Below, one piece after another: positions 2,337 through 7,813 of a stretch of 64,000 nt of DNA. The first letter of the stretch is position 1, and each line of letters starts with the position of its first letter. The stretch is taken from the NCBI RefSeq assembly GCF_024298845.1, contig NZ_CP101156.1, positions 1 through 64,000 of the forward strand, given 5' to 3'. The notes under the pieces are model-generated. The model was not told the origin of the DNA, ran no database searches, and was given only the letters and a program-made list of their open reading frames with translations. The stretch is from Natronosalvus amylolyticus (GTDB lineage Archaea; Halobacteriota; Halobacteria; Halobacteriales; Natrialbaceae). The position numbers were made by a program, and so were the translations under genes.

Positions 2337-2716
2337 CAACCGAGCCAGTTCACTCGCTGATCCGACGCAATTCGAGTGAATACCACTGGCGTCGCTGCAT
2401 CACCTTCGGTTTATATCGTTATACATGGGTCACGACCCCCTCGAGAACGTGGATTTACGGCGCTTTTTGTCGGTCGTTCTGTGAGTAATACTGTTGTACC
2501 CGTCGCGGGCTAAGACCTGTGAGTCGTCTTCACATTGTGGTCGGCGCTGCATCTTCACGTGGTCAGGCTGCATCCAACGACGCTACCCGTAATGGCCGAC
2601 TGTCTCACCTGACAATCGAATCTCATCACGTTGTGTGGGTGCTTTTCTGCAGAAATATAGCGTTTCGGTGGCAAAGGTGCCACCTCGTTATAGTCCGTGA
2701 CATCGACCCGACACCT
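2337..2716. other. Intergenic region before the sugar-binding protein gene
   Basis: A 380-bp stretch with no convincing gene. The open frame running from 2519 into the binding protein gene has non-haloarchaeal codon choice (many Cys, His and Trp codons) until the ATG at 2717. It contains an AT-rich patch near 2411-2425 and the proximal promoter and operator-like palindrome described separately. Confidence 0.6.
2652..2684 (+). promoter_or_regulatory. Promoter and palindromic operator of the ABC transporter binding protein
   Basis: A TATA-like AAATATA lies at 2653-2659. It is followed by a perfect 7-bp inverted repeat GGTGGCA-aagg-TGCCACC at 2667-2684, about 33 bp before the ATG at 2717. A palindrome at the expected transcription start is where a haloarchaeal repressor would sit; a sugar-responsive regulator is inferred, not shown. 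Confidence 0.5.
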
Positions 2717-3985
2717 ATGGGCGAGTCCAATTGGCAGATCGATCGACGTACCGTACTGGAAGGGATCGGTATCGGCGCTGTCGGTCTTGCGGGGGCCACG
2801 AACGTACAGGCCCGTTCGACCGTACAAGAGGGCGAAATAACCATCACCGCCGTCTGGACCGACGACGAAGAGGAGGACTTCCTCGCCGTGGTAGACTACG
2901 CGGAGGGGGAGACTGGCCTCGACATCTCGTATGCGCCACGAGACACCGAGACGCTTCTGACGTCGACCCTCATGGATTACGAGGCAGGTATCGCGACCGC
3001 GGACATCGTCGTGATACCGATGGAGGGTCGGGTTCGGAGAGACGCGGAGGCAGGCCACCTCGAGCCGGTCGGTGACCTCTGGGACGAGGAGGACTACACG
3101 ACCGATCACGCGACGGTGTCGGTGGACGACGACGTGTACGCCGCGCCGTTCGGCGGTGATCTCAAGCCCGGGTTCTGGTACCGTGAGTCGTTCTTCGACG
3201 AACACGATCTCGAGGAACCAGAAGACTACGACCAGTTCCTCGATTTACTCGCAGCGATAGACGGCATCGAGGGAGTCGAAGCGCCGCTGGCTTCAGGGAA
3301 CGGTGATGGCTGGCCCCTCAGTGATATCACGGAGGCGTTCATCCTTCGACAGGAAGACGGCCACGAGTTGCAGGTTGACCTCATCGAAGGCGAGGCCCAG
3401 TTCACCGACGACCGAGTTGCGACGGCGTTCGAAGAACTCCAGGAACTCCATCAGGAGGGCTACTTCAGCGAGGTGCGTGACTTCGGCATCCAGTACGAGT
3501 TCTTCTGGGCGAACGAAACGCCGCTGTACTTCATGGGGTCGTGGACGCCAGCGTTCGGCGCAATCGAAGATCCAGAGGATCTGAACTACTTCATGCTCCC
3601 CGGCGCGGAGGCGATGGTGACGAGCATTAACTGGTTCACTATTCCCGCGTACGTCGACGATGTCGATGCGGCGAAAGACGCTGCCGAGGCGATCATTTCG
3701 GCGGAGGGCCAGGAGGTCTGGACCGAGCGCGGTGGCTTCGTCCCCACTGCTGTCGACGTTCCGGAGGAAGCCTACGAACTCGAAGTCATGCGCGATCTTA
3801 CCCAGGAGGCCGACGAAGTCGAACTCGTTCCCGATCTGGACGACGCGCTCGGCGACCCGTTCCAGGCGGAGTTCTGGTCGCAACTGCTCGGCTTCTGGGC
3901 GGAACCTGATCAAGAGATTGAGCCGATCCTGGAGACGCTCGACGACGCCTTACAGGAGAGCGTTGGGACAGAAGACGGGGTATAG
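2717..3985 (+). CDS. ABC transporter substrate-binding protein, carbohydrate type
   Basis: Extracellular solute-binding protein (family 1, maltose/sugar-type fold) that would deliver a carbohydrate to the permeases encoded at 4369-6309. The 422-residue protein starts with a Tat-type signal (DRRTVLEGIGIGAVGLAGA, residues 9-27). Unlike most haloarchaeal binding proteins, no lipobox Cys follows the hydrophobic stretch. The mature part is very acidic, with typical family features such as a central FFWANETPLYFMGSW segment. The ATG at 2717 is supported by the signal peptide beginning there. Its stop is 2 nt from the next start, so the two are probably one transcript. The substrate cannot be read from sequence. 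Confidence 0.85.
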   Translation: MGESNWQIDRRTVLEGIGIGAVGLAGATNVQARSTVQEGEITITAVWTDDEEEDFLAVVDYAEGETGLDISYAPRDTETLLTSTLMDYEAGIATADIVVIPMEGRVRRDAEAGHLEPVGDLWDEEDYTTDHATVSVDDDVYAAPFGGDLKPGFWYRESFFDEHDLEEPEDYDQFLDLLAAIDGIEGVEAPLASGNGDGWPLSDITEAFILRQEDGHELQVDLIEGEAQFTDDRVATAFEELQELHQEGYFSEVRDFGIQYEFFWANETPLYFMGSWTPAFGAIEDPEDLNYFMLPGAEAMVTSINWFTIPAYVDDVDAAKDAAEAIISAEGQEVWTERGGFVPTAVDVPEEAYELEVMRDLTQEADEVELVPDLDDALGDPFQAEFWSQLLGFWAEPDQEIEPILETLDDALQESVGTEDGV

Positions 3986-3987
3986 GC

Positions 3988-4290
3988 GTGGTTGACGGGG
4001 GTGACGGCGTGACTGGAGGTCGCGGCGTCTTCGAGACGGTCGTCATCGCCGGGCAGGAGCTTCGGCGAAGCAACGTAAACGCCGTTGCCGTCGACGTTTT
4101 GTACCTCTTCACGACGGCGTTTTTCGCCACACTGGCGATACGGGGCTTTTGGCCGGCACTGATAGCCGCATTCCCCCTCGTCGTGTTGCTTTCGTTTGCC
4201 TGGATGTCCTCCCGGCTCTTTTTGTTCACGAACATCGTCGTCATCGCCGTGTCGATTGCGGTGACGCGAGCGGGAATGATGCCGCTGTGA
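3988..4290 (+). CDS. Small membrane protein linked to the binding protein gene
   Basis: A 100-residue protein with a short soluble N-terminus and two to three hydrophobic segments (about residues 32-52, 55-72 and 76-92). The GTG start at 3988 lies 2 nt after the binding protein stop; another GTG at 4009 is possible. I do not recognise a family. Because the binding protein has no lipid anchor site, a membrane tether or accessory transport subunit is one idea, but this is inference from position only. It converges with the permease gene ending at 4369, with a T-rich stretch (about 4294-4302) between them. Confidence 0.6.
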   Translation: MVDGGDGVTGGRGVFETVVIAGQELRRSNVNAVAVDVLYLFTTAFFATLAIRGFWPALIAAFPLVVLLSFAWMSSRLFLFTNIVVIAVSIAVTRAGMMPL

Positions 4291-4368: not shown

Positions 4369-5343
4369 TCAATCTGTCACCGCCGCGACCATCCCTCGTT
4401 TGTAGTATCGCTCGAGGAACAAGAACAGGAGTACCGGGACGGCCATCGTCATGATCGAGCCGGCGGCGATAAGTCCCCACTCCACCTGGACCCGCCCTCG
4501 CATTAACGGAAGTACCTGGGGTGCGAGGTAGAGTTCCGGTGAGCGCATGAACACCAGCGGGAAGAAAAACGCGTTCCACACCCACGTGAACTGGATGACG
4601 GCAACCGAGACGAGTGCCGGCGTCGACAAAGGCAGGATGATCGTCCGGAAGATCTGGTATCGCGAGGCACCGTCGATACGTGCGGCTTCCTCGAGTTCCT
4701 CCGGAATACCGAGCAGGTAATTTCGCAGGAACAGTACGACCCACCCGAGCCCCCATCCGATGTGGATCAGTATCAGCCCCATGTACGTGTCGAACAACCC
4801 GAATTCGCGGAGCGCGTTGAAGTTCCCCATCGCGATGAGTTCCGGTGGCGCGGCCATAACCAGCAGTATCAGGAAAAACAGTGTCGTCTTCAGCGGGAAC
4901 TCGAACCTAGCGAACGGGTACGCCGCCATCACGCCGAGGAGCATCACGACGAGTACGGCGGGGATGGTGACGATGAACGTGTTGAGGAGGGCCTGCCCCA
5001 TCGGTGCAGTGCTGTAATTCCACGCCCGATAGTAGTTCTCGAACGTGATCGTCATTCCCTCTATATGCCACCAGCCACCGATGATCTCCGAGAGCGGTCG
5101 GATCGAGGCCATGAACAGGCCGATGAACGGAACGATCCAGAGGACGGCAATGGTGATCGCGACGACGTACTTGAGGGCTCGACGTTTCGTGGGAATCGAC
5201 TCGCGGAGTCTCGTTCGCCAGCTTCGTTCCGCGGTGGGGGCGATGTCCGGAACGTCGTCGACCGACAGGTACTGATCGTGATCGGTGGCCCGTTCGGAGC
5301 CGGCGTCGATGCCAGTCGGTTCGAGGGGGTCGTCTTCAACCAT
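4369..5343 (-). CDS. ABC sugar transporter permease, MalG type
   Basis: Second inner-membrane permease of the sugar ABC transporter. The 324-residue protein has a roughly 60-residue acidic cytoplasmic N-terminus, six predicted membrane segments, and the EAA loop EELEEAARIDGASRYQIF that docks on the ATPase. Its ATG at 5343 is 6 bp after the stop of the MalF-type gene, so the two are cotranscribed. It is the last gene of the ATPase-permease-permease operon. Confidence 0.92.
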   Translation of the reverse strand: MVEDDPLEPTGIDAGSERATDHDQYLSVDDVPDIAPTAERSWRTRLRESIPTKRRALKYVVAITIAVLWIVPFIGLFMASIRPLSEIIGGWWHIEGMTITFENYYRAWNYSTAPMGQALLNTFIVTIPAVLVVMLLGVMAAYPFARFEFPLKTTLFFLILLVMAAPPELIAMGNFNALREFGLFDTYMGLILIHIGWGLGWVVLFLRNYLLGIPEELEEAARIDGASRYQIFRTIILPLSTPALVSVAVIQFTWVWNAFFFPLVFMRSPELYLAPQVLPLMRGRVQVEWGLIAAGSIMTMAVPVLLFLFLERYYKRGMVAAVTD

Positions 5344-5349
5344 GTCTAA

Positions 5350-6309
5350 TCAGTTCATACGAGCGATGTACAGCGCGAGCGGGGCGACGATAAACAGCTG
5401 AACCAACGCTACCACCATCGCCATCCCGTAGTCTATGGGCGGGCGGAATGCCGCCCGGTATACTTCGATACCCAACACTGAGTACGCGTGGTTCGGTCCA
5501 CCTGCAGCGCCACCGGCAGCGTATACGATGTCGAACATTCGCATCACCCAGATGATGCCCATAATGACAACTACGGCCGTCACGGGCCTGACCAGCGGCC
5601 AGATGATGTCACGGAACCGTCGCCAGGCACCGGCTCCGTCGACCTTGGCGGATTCGAGCAGGGATGGATCGATGGCCGAAAGCGCGGAACTGTAGAGCAA
5701 CATACTGAATCCGGTGTGGACCCAAATTCCGCCCGCAATGAGGGCGTAAATCGCCACCTGGGGCGATTGCGTCCAGTTTCGAACCCACTGCCCTTGACCG
5801 AGGACACGAAGAACTTCGTTGAACACCCCTGCCCGGGGATCGTAAATGAACATGAGAACCAGCCCGATGACGATGGGCGGGACAGTGAATCCCACGAAGA
5901 TCATGGATCGGAGGAACCGTCGTCCTTTTAAATCGGCGAACAGCAACGCCAGTCCGAGGCCGAGGAACGTACTCGCGGGTACGTGAATAACGACCCAGAG
6001 GAGGTTGTGGGTCAGTGCTCCCATGGGATAACGCAACTCCTGCATGTTCGGCCAGTGGATAATGAGCTGATCGGTAAGCGAACGGGTCCAGTTGTCGAGG
6101 CCGACAAAACTATCCAGAGTGAACGTTTCCCAGGAGAAGAAGCTCCCGAACGCCGAGTAGACGATTGGGGCGACCGAGAAGATACCGAAGAGAGTCAGGC
6201 CGGGAACCAGAAACACCGCCAGTGCGACCGCCTTTTCCCGGTCGATATCCAGCAGCCCTTCCTCATCGCTATCCACCGTAATCCCGTCGATGTGATCTTG
6301 TAAGCTCAT
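5350..6309 (-). CDS. ABC sugar transporter permease, MalF type
   Basis: First permease subunit, 319 residues and six predicted membrane segments after an acidic N-terminus. The EAA loop is visible as SLLESAKVDGAGAWRRFRDI. I placed the start at the ATG at 6309, which gives the usual MSLQDHIDG-like N-terminus close to the first membrane segment. The open frame reaches 6450 but that extension overlaps the ATPase gene. It lies 28 bp downstream of the ATPase gene stop. Confidence 0.92.
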   Translation of the reverse strand: MSLQDHIDGITVDSDEEGLLDIDREKAVALAVFLVPGLTLFGIFSVAPIVYSAFGSFFSWETFTLDSFVGLDNWTRSLTDQLIIHWPNMQELRYPMGALTHNLLWVVIHVPASTFLGLGLALLFADLKGRRFLRSMIFVGFTVPPIVIGLVLMFIYDPRAGVFNEVLRVLGQGQWVRNWTQSPQVAIYALIAGGIWVHTGFSMLLYSSALSAIDPSLLESAKVDGAGAWRRFRDIIWPLVRPVTAVVVIMGIIWVMRMFDIVYAAGGAAGGPNHAYSVLGIEVYRAAFRPPIDYGMAMVVALVQLFIVAPLALYIARMN

Positions 6310-6337
6310 GTGCGTGGGCGTCTCGAGGCGGTGTCGA

Positions 6338-7468
<1,131 letters not shown>

Positions 7469-7813
7469 TCACCATATTCGAAGACGTTTATCAATATCAA
7501 CCCCCACATCACTGCCAATCTTATTGAATAGTACACATTCTTTGATGGTTCGTTGCGGAGATCAAACGGAGGTCTCTCGAGTTGGGACTAGCGGACTCTC
7601 GTTCGCTATATTCGGCGTTCCCGATGCGGAGAACTACATACAGTATCCTCGAACGGTTCTTCCCGTCTTCAAGGTAGCGAGCTCGCTGGGTATATCGGAT
7701 CTCGACATCGGGGGCAGCGATAGCCCGATCGGCGATCACATCCACCGTTCGTTGCTTTCGGTCACCTCGAGCCGATTGAAGTCCGTCAAAATCACGCCGG
7801 ACAACGGGTCAGG
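7469..7813. other. Intergenic region between the transporter operon and metG
   Basis: A 345-bp stretch holding the transporter promoter at its left end. Open frames on both strands here have atypical codon choice and no recognisable motif. I see no supported gene. Confidence 0.5.
7486..7500 (-). promoter_or_regulatory. TATA box of the sugar transporter operon
   Basis: On the minus strand the sequence TTGATATTGATAAAC lies 18-32 nt before the ATPase ATG at 7468, the spacing expected for a leaderless haloarchaeal transcript. Confidence 0.5.

Follow-up and report, generated by a model that had tools for sequence, protein, structure and literature searches.

An ABC importer is usually considered complete once it has a binding protein, permeases, and an ATPase. 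In the class that we take to be CUT1 (the MalEFGK, UgpBAEC, or GlcSTUV kind), these are a substrate-binding protein (SBP) of the SBP_bac_1 family, two permeases with the BPD_transp_1 domain, and a MalK-type ATPase with TOBE_2 and OB_MalK domains. Another kind of SBP-dependent importer, the TRAP transporter, includes a small membrane subunit (DctQ) with four helices. On the export side, Storf et al. (2010, PMC2945643) give a lipobox for 46-65% of haloarchaeal Tat substrates, so about half are without one. They also describe mutants of Tat lipoproteins in which the lipobox Cys was changed to Ser: the earlier mutants were released, and two others remained associated with the cell as precursors that had not been processed.

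In Natronosalvus amylolyticus we found what appears to be an importer of the CUT1 type accompanied by one additional, obligate membrane protein, and this partner is what sets it apart. The window (the whole stretch of 64,000 nucleotides that was analysed) comprises bases 1-64000 of a contig, from a genome of 4.2 Mb. On its forward strand, the SBP gene (2717..3985) encodes a carbohydrate-type binding protein of 422 amino acids, and just 2 nt after its stop codon is the GTG start of a gene (3988..4290) for a small membrane protein of 100 amino acids, which we call SMP. On the reverse strand are a MalG/UgpE-type permease (4369..5343), a MalF/UgpA-type permease (5350..6309; the mechanically called reading frame extends to 6450), and a MalK/UgpC-type ATPase (6338..7468), all identified from Pfam, NCBIfam, and comparison of loci. 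Upstream of the malK-malF-malG unit (7469..7548, reverse strand), comparison with relatives shows a conserved TATA-like block near -30. As in CUT1 importers, both permeases match BPD_transp_1, and the ATPase matches ABC_tran, TOBE_2, and OB_MalK, all above the Pfam cut-offs. The best NCBIfam relatives of these genes are of the UgpA/UgpC and GlcU types; no equivalog reached its cut-off. Unlike in CUT1 importers, a private three-helix membrane protein follows directly after the SBP, and the SBP gene and the malKFG unit point toward each other. The preliminary description had treated SBP and SMP as a two-gene unit. The pair is real, but it is half of an importer: because the malG/malF/malK-type genes at 4369-7468, which that description did not mention, converge on it, the pair makes up one side of a complete ABC importer for carbohydrates.

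The SBP matches SBP_bac_1 (E = 8.6e-20; score 72.4 bits, cut-off 26) and also SBP_bac_8, and its nearest named relative, from Natronosalvus hydrolyticus, is 95% identical. Its structural model has a mean pLDDT of 77 and is poor at residues 1-37, 194-199, and 253-276. Both the profile and the model lead to chito-oligosaccharide binding proteins and to AcbH: by profile and by fold, the closest solved relatives are NagB2 (7eho/7ehu, which binds chito-oligosaccharides; profile E = 1.5e-16) and AcbH (3oo6; about 5e-12). At only about 20% identity, these are too far away to infer the ligand. From sequence and model, the substrate class would be a sugar or an oligosaccharide. By eye, we saw no hint of the substrate and recognised no glycoside hydrolase among 14 neighbouring proteins from six loci (L077, L084, L094, L098, L101, and L104), which we take to be GrpE-, DnaK-, EF-1alpha-, sensor-, or UspA-like or which are unnamed.

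The N-terminus of the SBP (MGESNWQIDRRTVLEGIGIGAVGLAGATNVQARS...) carries twin Arg at residues 10-11 within a Tat signal region (2717..2815, forward strand), with a possible signal peptidase I site at which cleavage would follow VQA in the sequence VQARS. There is no Cys in the entire protein, which bears out an earlier reading of this gene as having a Tat signal without a lipobox Cys. The protein resembles the haloarchaeal Tat lipoproteins of PMC2945643 in its twin Arg, which are invariant across an alignment of 34 sequences, and an AGC lipobox is present in 25 of 51 members of its family. It differs from them in that it, along with 25 other members, lacks the lipobox Cys.

The lack of an anchor had been called unusual for haloarchaea. 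This holds for the binding proteins of this genome, where the other SBP_bac_1 or SBP_bac_8 places all have twin Arg and a lipobox Cys (10 of 10). For Tat substrates in general it fails, given the frequency reported in PMC2945643. We also searched three further genomes, selected for the absence of a lipobox from the SBP that is partnered with SMP. With SBP_bac_1 only (E <= 1e-6), these contain 29 SBP places, including the 3 that are partnered with SMP, and 25 of the 26 others keep the lipobox (a count that includes L217 and L221 after correction of the reading frame). The loss of the anchor is specific and not genome-wide: across the four genomes together, 35 of 36 other SBPs have kept it. The remaining one (L212, G119:C1:281841-282725) is a Tat binding protein with SGY instead of SGC at the lipobox position, and another SBP gene (L205) is located a few kb away. 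So, loss of the anchor is not confined to SBPs that are partnered with SMP.

SMP was described earlier as a small membrane protein of unrecognised family, and it had no match in Pfam or NCBIfam at E <= 1. Across 34 members of the family, there are scattered weak matches only, each to one or two members (best E = 0.0013 in Pfam and 0.00026 in NCBIfam), and the most widespread of the weak matches, to TM0026_fam, is shared by 6 of the 34 members (lowest E = 0.053). Among solved structures, we found no relative by sequence (E <= 10) or by fold (E <= 0.001). An AlphaFold2 model built with 34 sequences predicts three helices (residues 13-50, 54-74, and 76-94; mean pLDDT 79, pTM 0.60). The N-terminus is modeled with low confidence, varies in length, and is often acidic. 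Because it is hydrophilic and twin Arg precede helix 1, the N-terminus is probably inside. If so, then the model would place just one short loop and a short C-terminal tail on the outside, and it shows no sizeable extracytoplasmic domain that might hold the SBP. Eight positions are invariant across 51 sequences (E24, D36, T42, G53, P63, F70, F78, and T93). SMP is like DctQ in being a small membrane protein that accompanies an SBP-dependent importer, but it has three predicted helices rather than four. Pfam holds a model for DctQ, and it was not among the 14 Pfam families that the 34 SMP members matched at E <= 1. In the literature on accessory membrane proteins of haloarchaea or of ABC transporters, none of the matches listed was a partner like SMP.

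We searched for the pair in other haloarchaea, as the preliminary description had suggested, and found that it is conserved. Among 125 genomes of Natrialbaceae, 34 contain the SBP (E <= 1e-10). SMP is found in 37 at E <= 0.01, and the 34 that reach E <= 1e-19 are the same 34 genomes. (We left out the weak SMP matches in G117, G094, and G013 and at a second place in G003, with E from 6.5e-6 to 0.01, as probably non-orthologous; of these, the place in G003, or L006, was inspected individually.) In a draw of 392 genomes from the order, searched with alignments as queries, SMP (E <= 1e-3) and the SBP (E <= 1e-40) were each found in 48 genomes, and the two sets are identical. Three of the family genomes (G015, G097, and G120) are absent from this draw. 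Together, these searches gave 51 distinct loci, with 34 in Natrialbaceae and 17 outside the family, and SMP is directly after the SBP in all 51. That SMP is a private partner of this SBP, as had been claimed, is thus strongly supported.

The gap between the two genes is -8 to +3 nt in 46 of the 51 loci. Outlying values of -79 and +91 are artefacts of the choice of start codon (+91 is at L079, where the start of SMP is probably mis-called). We corrected the SBP starts of L087 and L089 by hand, and the start of L099 is probably wrong. Outside the family, the called SBP starts of L135, L136, L140, L144, and L145 are probably too far downstream, so that the twin Arg are missing from the called proteins.

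A draw of 392 genomes from the phylum gave 13 SMP matches, of which 12 are in genomes of the order that were already known. The other one, in G697, lies outside the order, and we consider it doubtful: it has E = 2.1e-4 and covers positions 31-82 of the model within a frame of 611 amino acids. There was no match to the SBP in a plasmid collection at E <= 1e-20, and in viral contigs a relative of SMP was not confirmed.

The permease and ATPase genes usually accompany the pair. In 33 of the 34 family loci, malG-malF-malK converge on it at a distance of no more than about 1.7 kb, and one or two other genes intervene between the pair and the mal unit in some of these loci. The remaining locus (L082) stops at the edge of its contig. 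(In L104, unlike in the other family loci, the MalK match is in two pieces about 1 kb apart, at query positions 42-375 and 1-42.) The genes that flank the cassette in the window (a PAN-type ATPase, a GATase-like gene, and MetG) recur in the same arrangement only in L072, so it is the cassette itself that is conserved as a unit, rather than large-scale synteny. Outside the family, 10 of the 17 loci have the permease unit close by and convergent. In L196-L198 it is convergent and about 8 kb off. Four cases are not convergent, at a distance of about 12 kb in G378 and of about 28-31 kb in G222, G341, and G400, where malF alone was located. In all 7 of the loci with displaced permeases (about 8-31 kb), SMP remains with the SBP. 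The non-convergent cases (L136/L192, L137, L138, and L144, in genomes G378, G400, G222, and G341) belong to one genus outside the family.

The AGC lipobox is present in the SBPs of just 8 of the 34 family loci and of all 17 loci outside the family. Each of these 25 SBPs is adjoined by SMP. The 26 SBPs without the anchor all keep the twin Arg, and 21 of them have [AV]xAQ in the signal region. By eye, they also lack the linker, rich in Gly, Asp, or Ser, that follows the Cys in many of the anchored members. We built a tree of all 51 SBPs from the region after the signal and rooted it on the 17 proteins from outside the family, all of which are anchored. This tree requires at least 3 changes in the state of the lipobox (bootstrap range 2-4); the starred branches force only 1. 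Three losses would satisfy it, as would two losses plus one gain. Within the family, the first branch is the anchored L097 (support 90/66), which helps to place anchored proteins at the base of the family. The ancestral SBP was probably a Tat lipoprotein.

The explanation that we prefer, at about even confidence, is that the locus encodes a CUT1-type haloarchaeal carbohydrate importer with SMP as a lineage-specific accessory protein; SMP would work together with an SBP that was ancestrally anchored and that lost its anchor in Natrialbaceae. In this five-gene convergent cassette, the SBP would be exported by Tat and would capture a sugar or oligosaccharide. It would hand the substrate to the MalF/MalG-type permease, with transport powered by the MalK-type ATPase. 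SMP would be an accessory three-helix protein of the membrane, probably a subunit that docks or stabilises, and not a late substitute for the anchor. In Natrialbaceae, both the lipobox and the linker appear to have been lost, and most of the anchor-less members carry what may be a signal-peptidase-I-like site, so the SBP of the window is probably cleaved and held under the S-layer, perhaps with the aid of SMP. The linkage of SBP and SMP would fit a role in expression as well.

The preliminary description instead proposed that the SMP gene exists to tether an anchor-less SBP to the membrane. The strict and private linkage of the two genes and the lack of Cys in the SBP of the window are consistent with this, but the same SMP accompanies every one of the lipobox-bearing SBPs, including all of those outside the family, and so it predates the loss of the anchor. 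Furthermore, its model offers no extracytoplasmic domain to bind the SBP. Because SMP adjoins SBPs with the anchor as well as those without it, solving the anchoring problem was not why it was acquired; we reject an origin as a replacement tether, and tethering is a very improbable reason for the gene's existence. A bolder form of our preferred explanation is that SMP has always held the SBP near the permease, so that the Natrialbaceae could do without the anchor and lost it, perhaps repeatedly. (This form is not exclusive of our explanation, which is why the probabilities that we attach to the various readings overlap.) The retention of the lipobox by nearly all of the other SBPs, in the genome of the window and in three more, and the number of state changes in the tree argue for it. 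However, the changes in the tree might be one gain and two losses, with a single change forced by the starred branches, and the three control genomes were selected for having an anchor-less SBP beside SMP and also contain L212, which lacks the lipobox without this partner. Nor do the residues of SMP decide the matter: R52 is present in 26 of 26 partners of anchor-less SBPs and in 5 of 25 partners of anchored ones, but this is confounded by descent, with just 1 to 3 independent pairs, and the comparison had no power and carries no significance. We regard this bolder form as a tentative possibility. We are slightly more sceptical of its fullest statement, which is that SMP is an old, obligate protein dock holding the SBP at the permease, and that its presence let Natrialbaceae drop the lipid anchor while nearly all other SBPs kept theirs. 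Among the literature matches listed, there was no precedent for a protein dock for the SBP of a carbohydrate ABC importer.

Alternatively, SMP might be a subunit on the permease side or a regulatory subunit, acting for instance in the assembly of MalF/MalG or in control by the energy state, and be unrelated to the location of the SBP. SMP does belong to a conserved cassette with malGFK, its model is small and helical and lacks an extracytoplasmic domain, and malF is still present in the 4 searched genomes where it is distant. But wherever the permease genes are separated from the pair, SMP goes with the SBP and not with them, and we consider that this alternative, too, has a limited chance of being correct. 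Under our preferred explanation, the co-inheritance of SMP with the SBP, whether the SBP is anchored or not and whether the permeases are near or distant, suggests that SMP is an unrecognised component of the importer. The family also amounts to a natural experiment, as some related species have the lipid anchor and others do not while all have the same SMP, and it allows one to ask how archaea, in the absence of an outer membrane, retain binding proteins at the cell surface.

Upstream of the SBP, a pattern search identified a probable TATA box (TTAT, 2688..2691, forward strand) 29 nt before the ATG, and the transcript is probably leaderless. This layout matches the haloarchaeal TATA box TTWT and leaderless transcription as described in PMC4983044. 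Of the 34 family loci, 33 have a TATA-like pattern at -28 to -31 relative to the ATG, and the exception is L099, with its doubtful start. (The pattern was loose, namely TTAA, TTAT, GATATC, or TTTGG, and was sought only between -40 and -18.)

The perfect palindrome with 7-bp arms that had been reported at this promoter (GGTGGCA-AAGG-TGCCACC, 2667..2684, on neither strand in particular) spans -50 to -33 relative to the start codon and lies directly before the TATA-like box. It had been interpreted as an operator that gives the SBP-SMP pair dedicated control. In favor of this, its arms are perfect and are unchanged in the 95%-identical relative (L072). However, the window and L072 are the only 2 of the 34 family loci with the exact sequence: within 120 bp upstream, the best match has 5 mismatches in L073, which is from a third species of the genus that has the pair, and 5-8 mismatches in the other 31. 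Across the genome there is a single perfect copy, and 18 places (including that copy) match with at most 2 mismatches, as compared to 49 for the reversed control. Inverted repeats of this kind (arms of at least 7 and a gap of at most 12) also arose in 100 of 2000 dinucleotide shuffles (5%) of the 100-bp upstream stretch, and one is present in 73 of the 639 bins of 100 bp into which the window divides. Although the palindrome is real, it does not clearly exceed what chance would give, and a role as a dedicated operator is unlikely. Different inverted repeats are present within the same upstream 100 bp in L075, L086, and L089.

Many relatives (for example L075, L080, L085, and L094) share a stretch resembling GATCGGTCATAC downstream of the TATA-like box and ahead of the ATG. 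This stretch could be a better candidate for an operator than the palindrome, as a leaderless gene should have little constraint there. A second perfect palindrome, TTTCTGCAGAAA, is at 2644-2655. It overlaps a TATA-like AAATATAG stretch that is too far upstream to be the TATA box, and L072 has CTGTAG where the window has CTGCAG.
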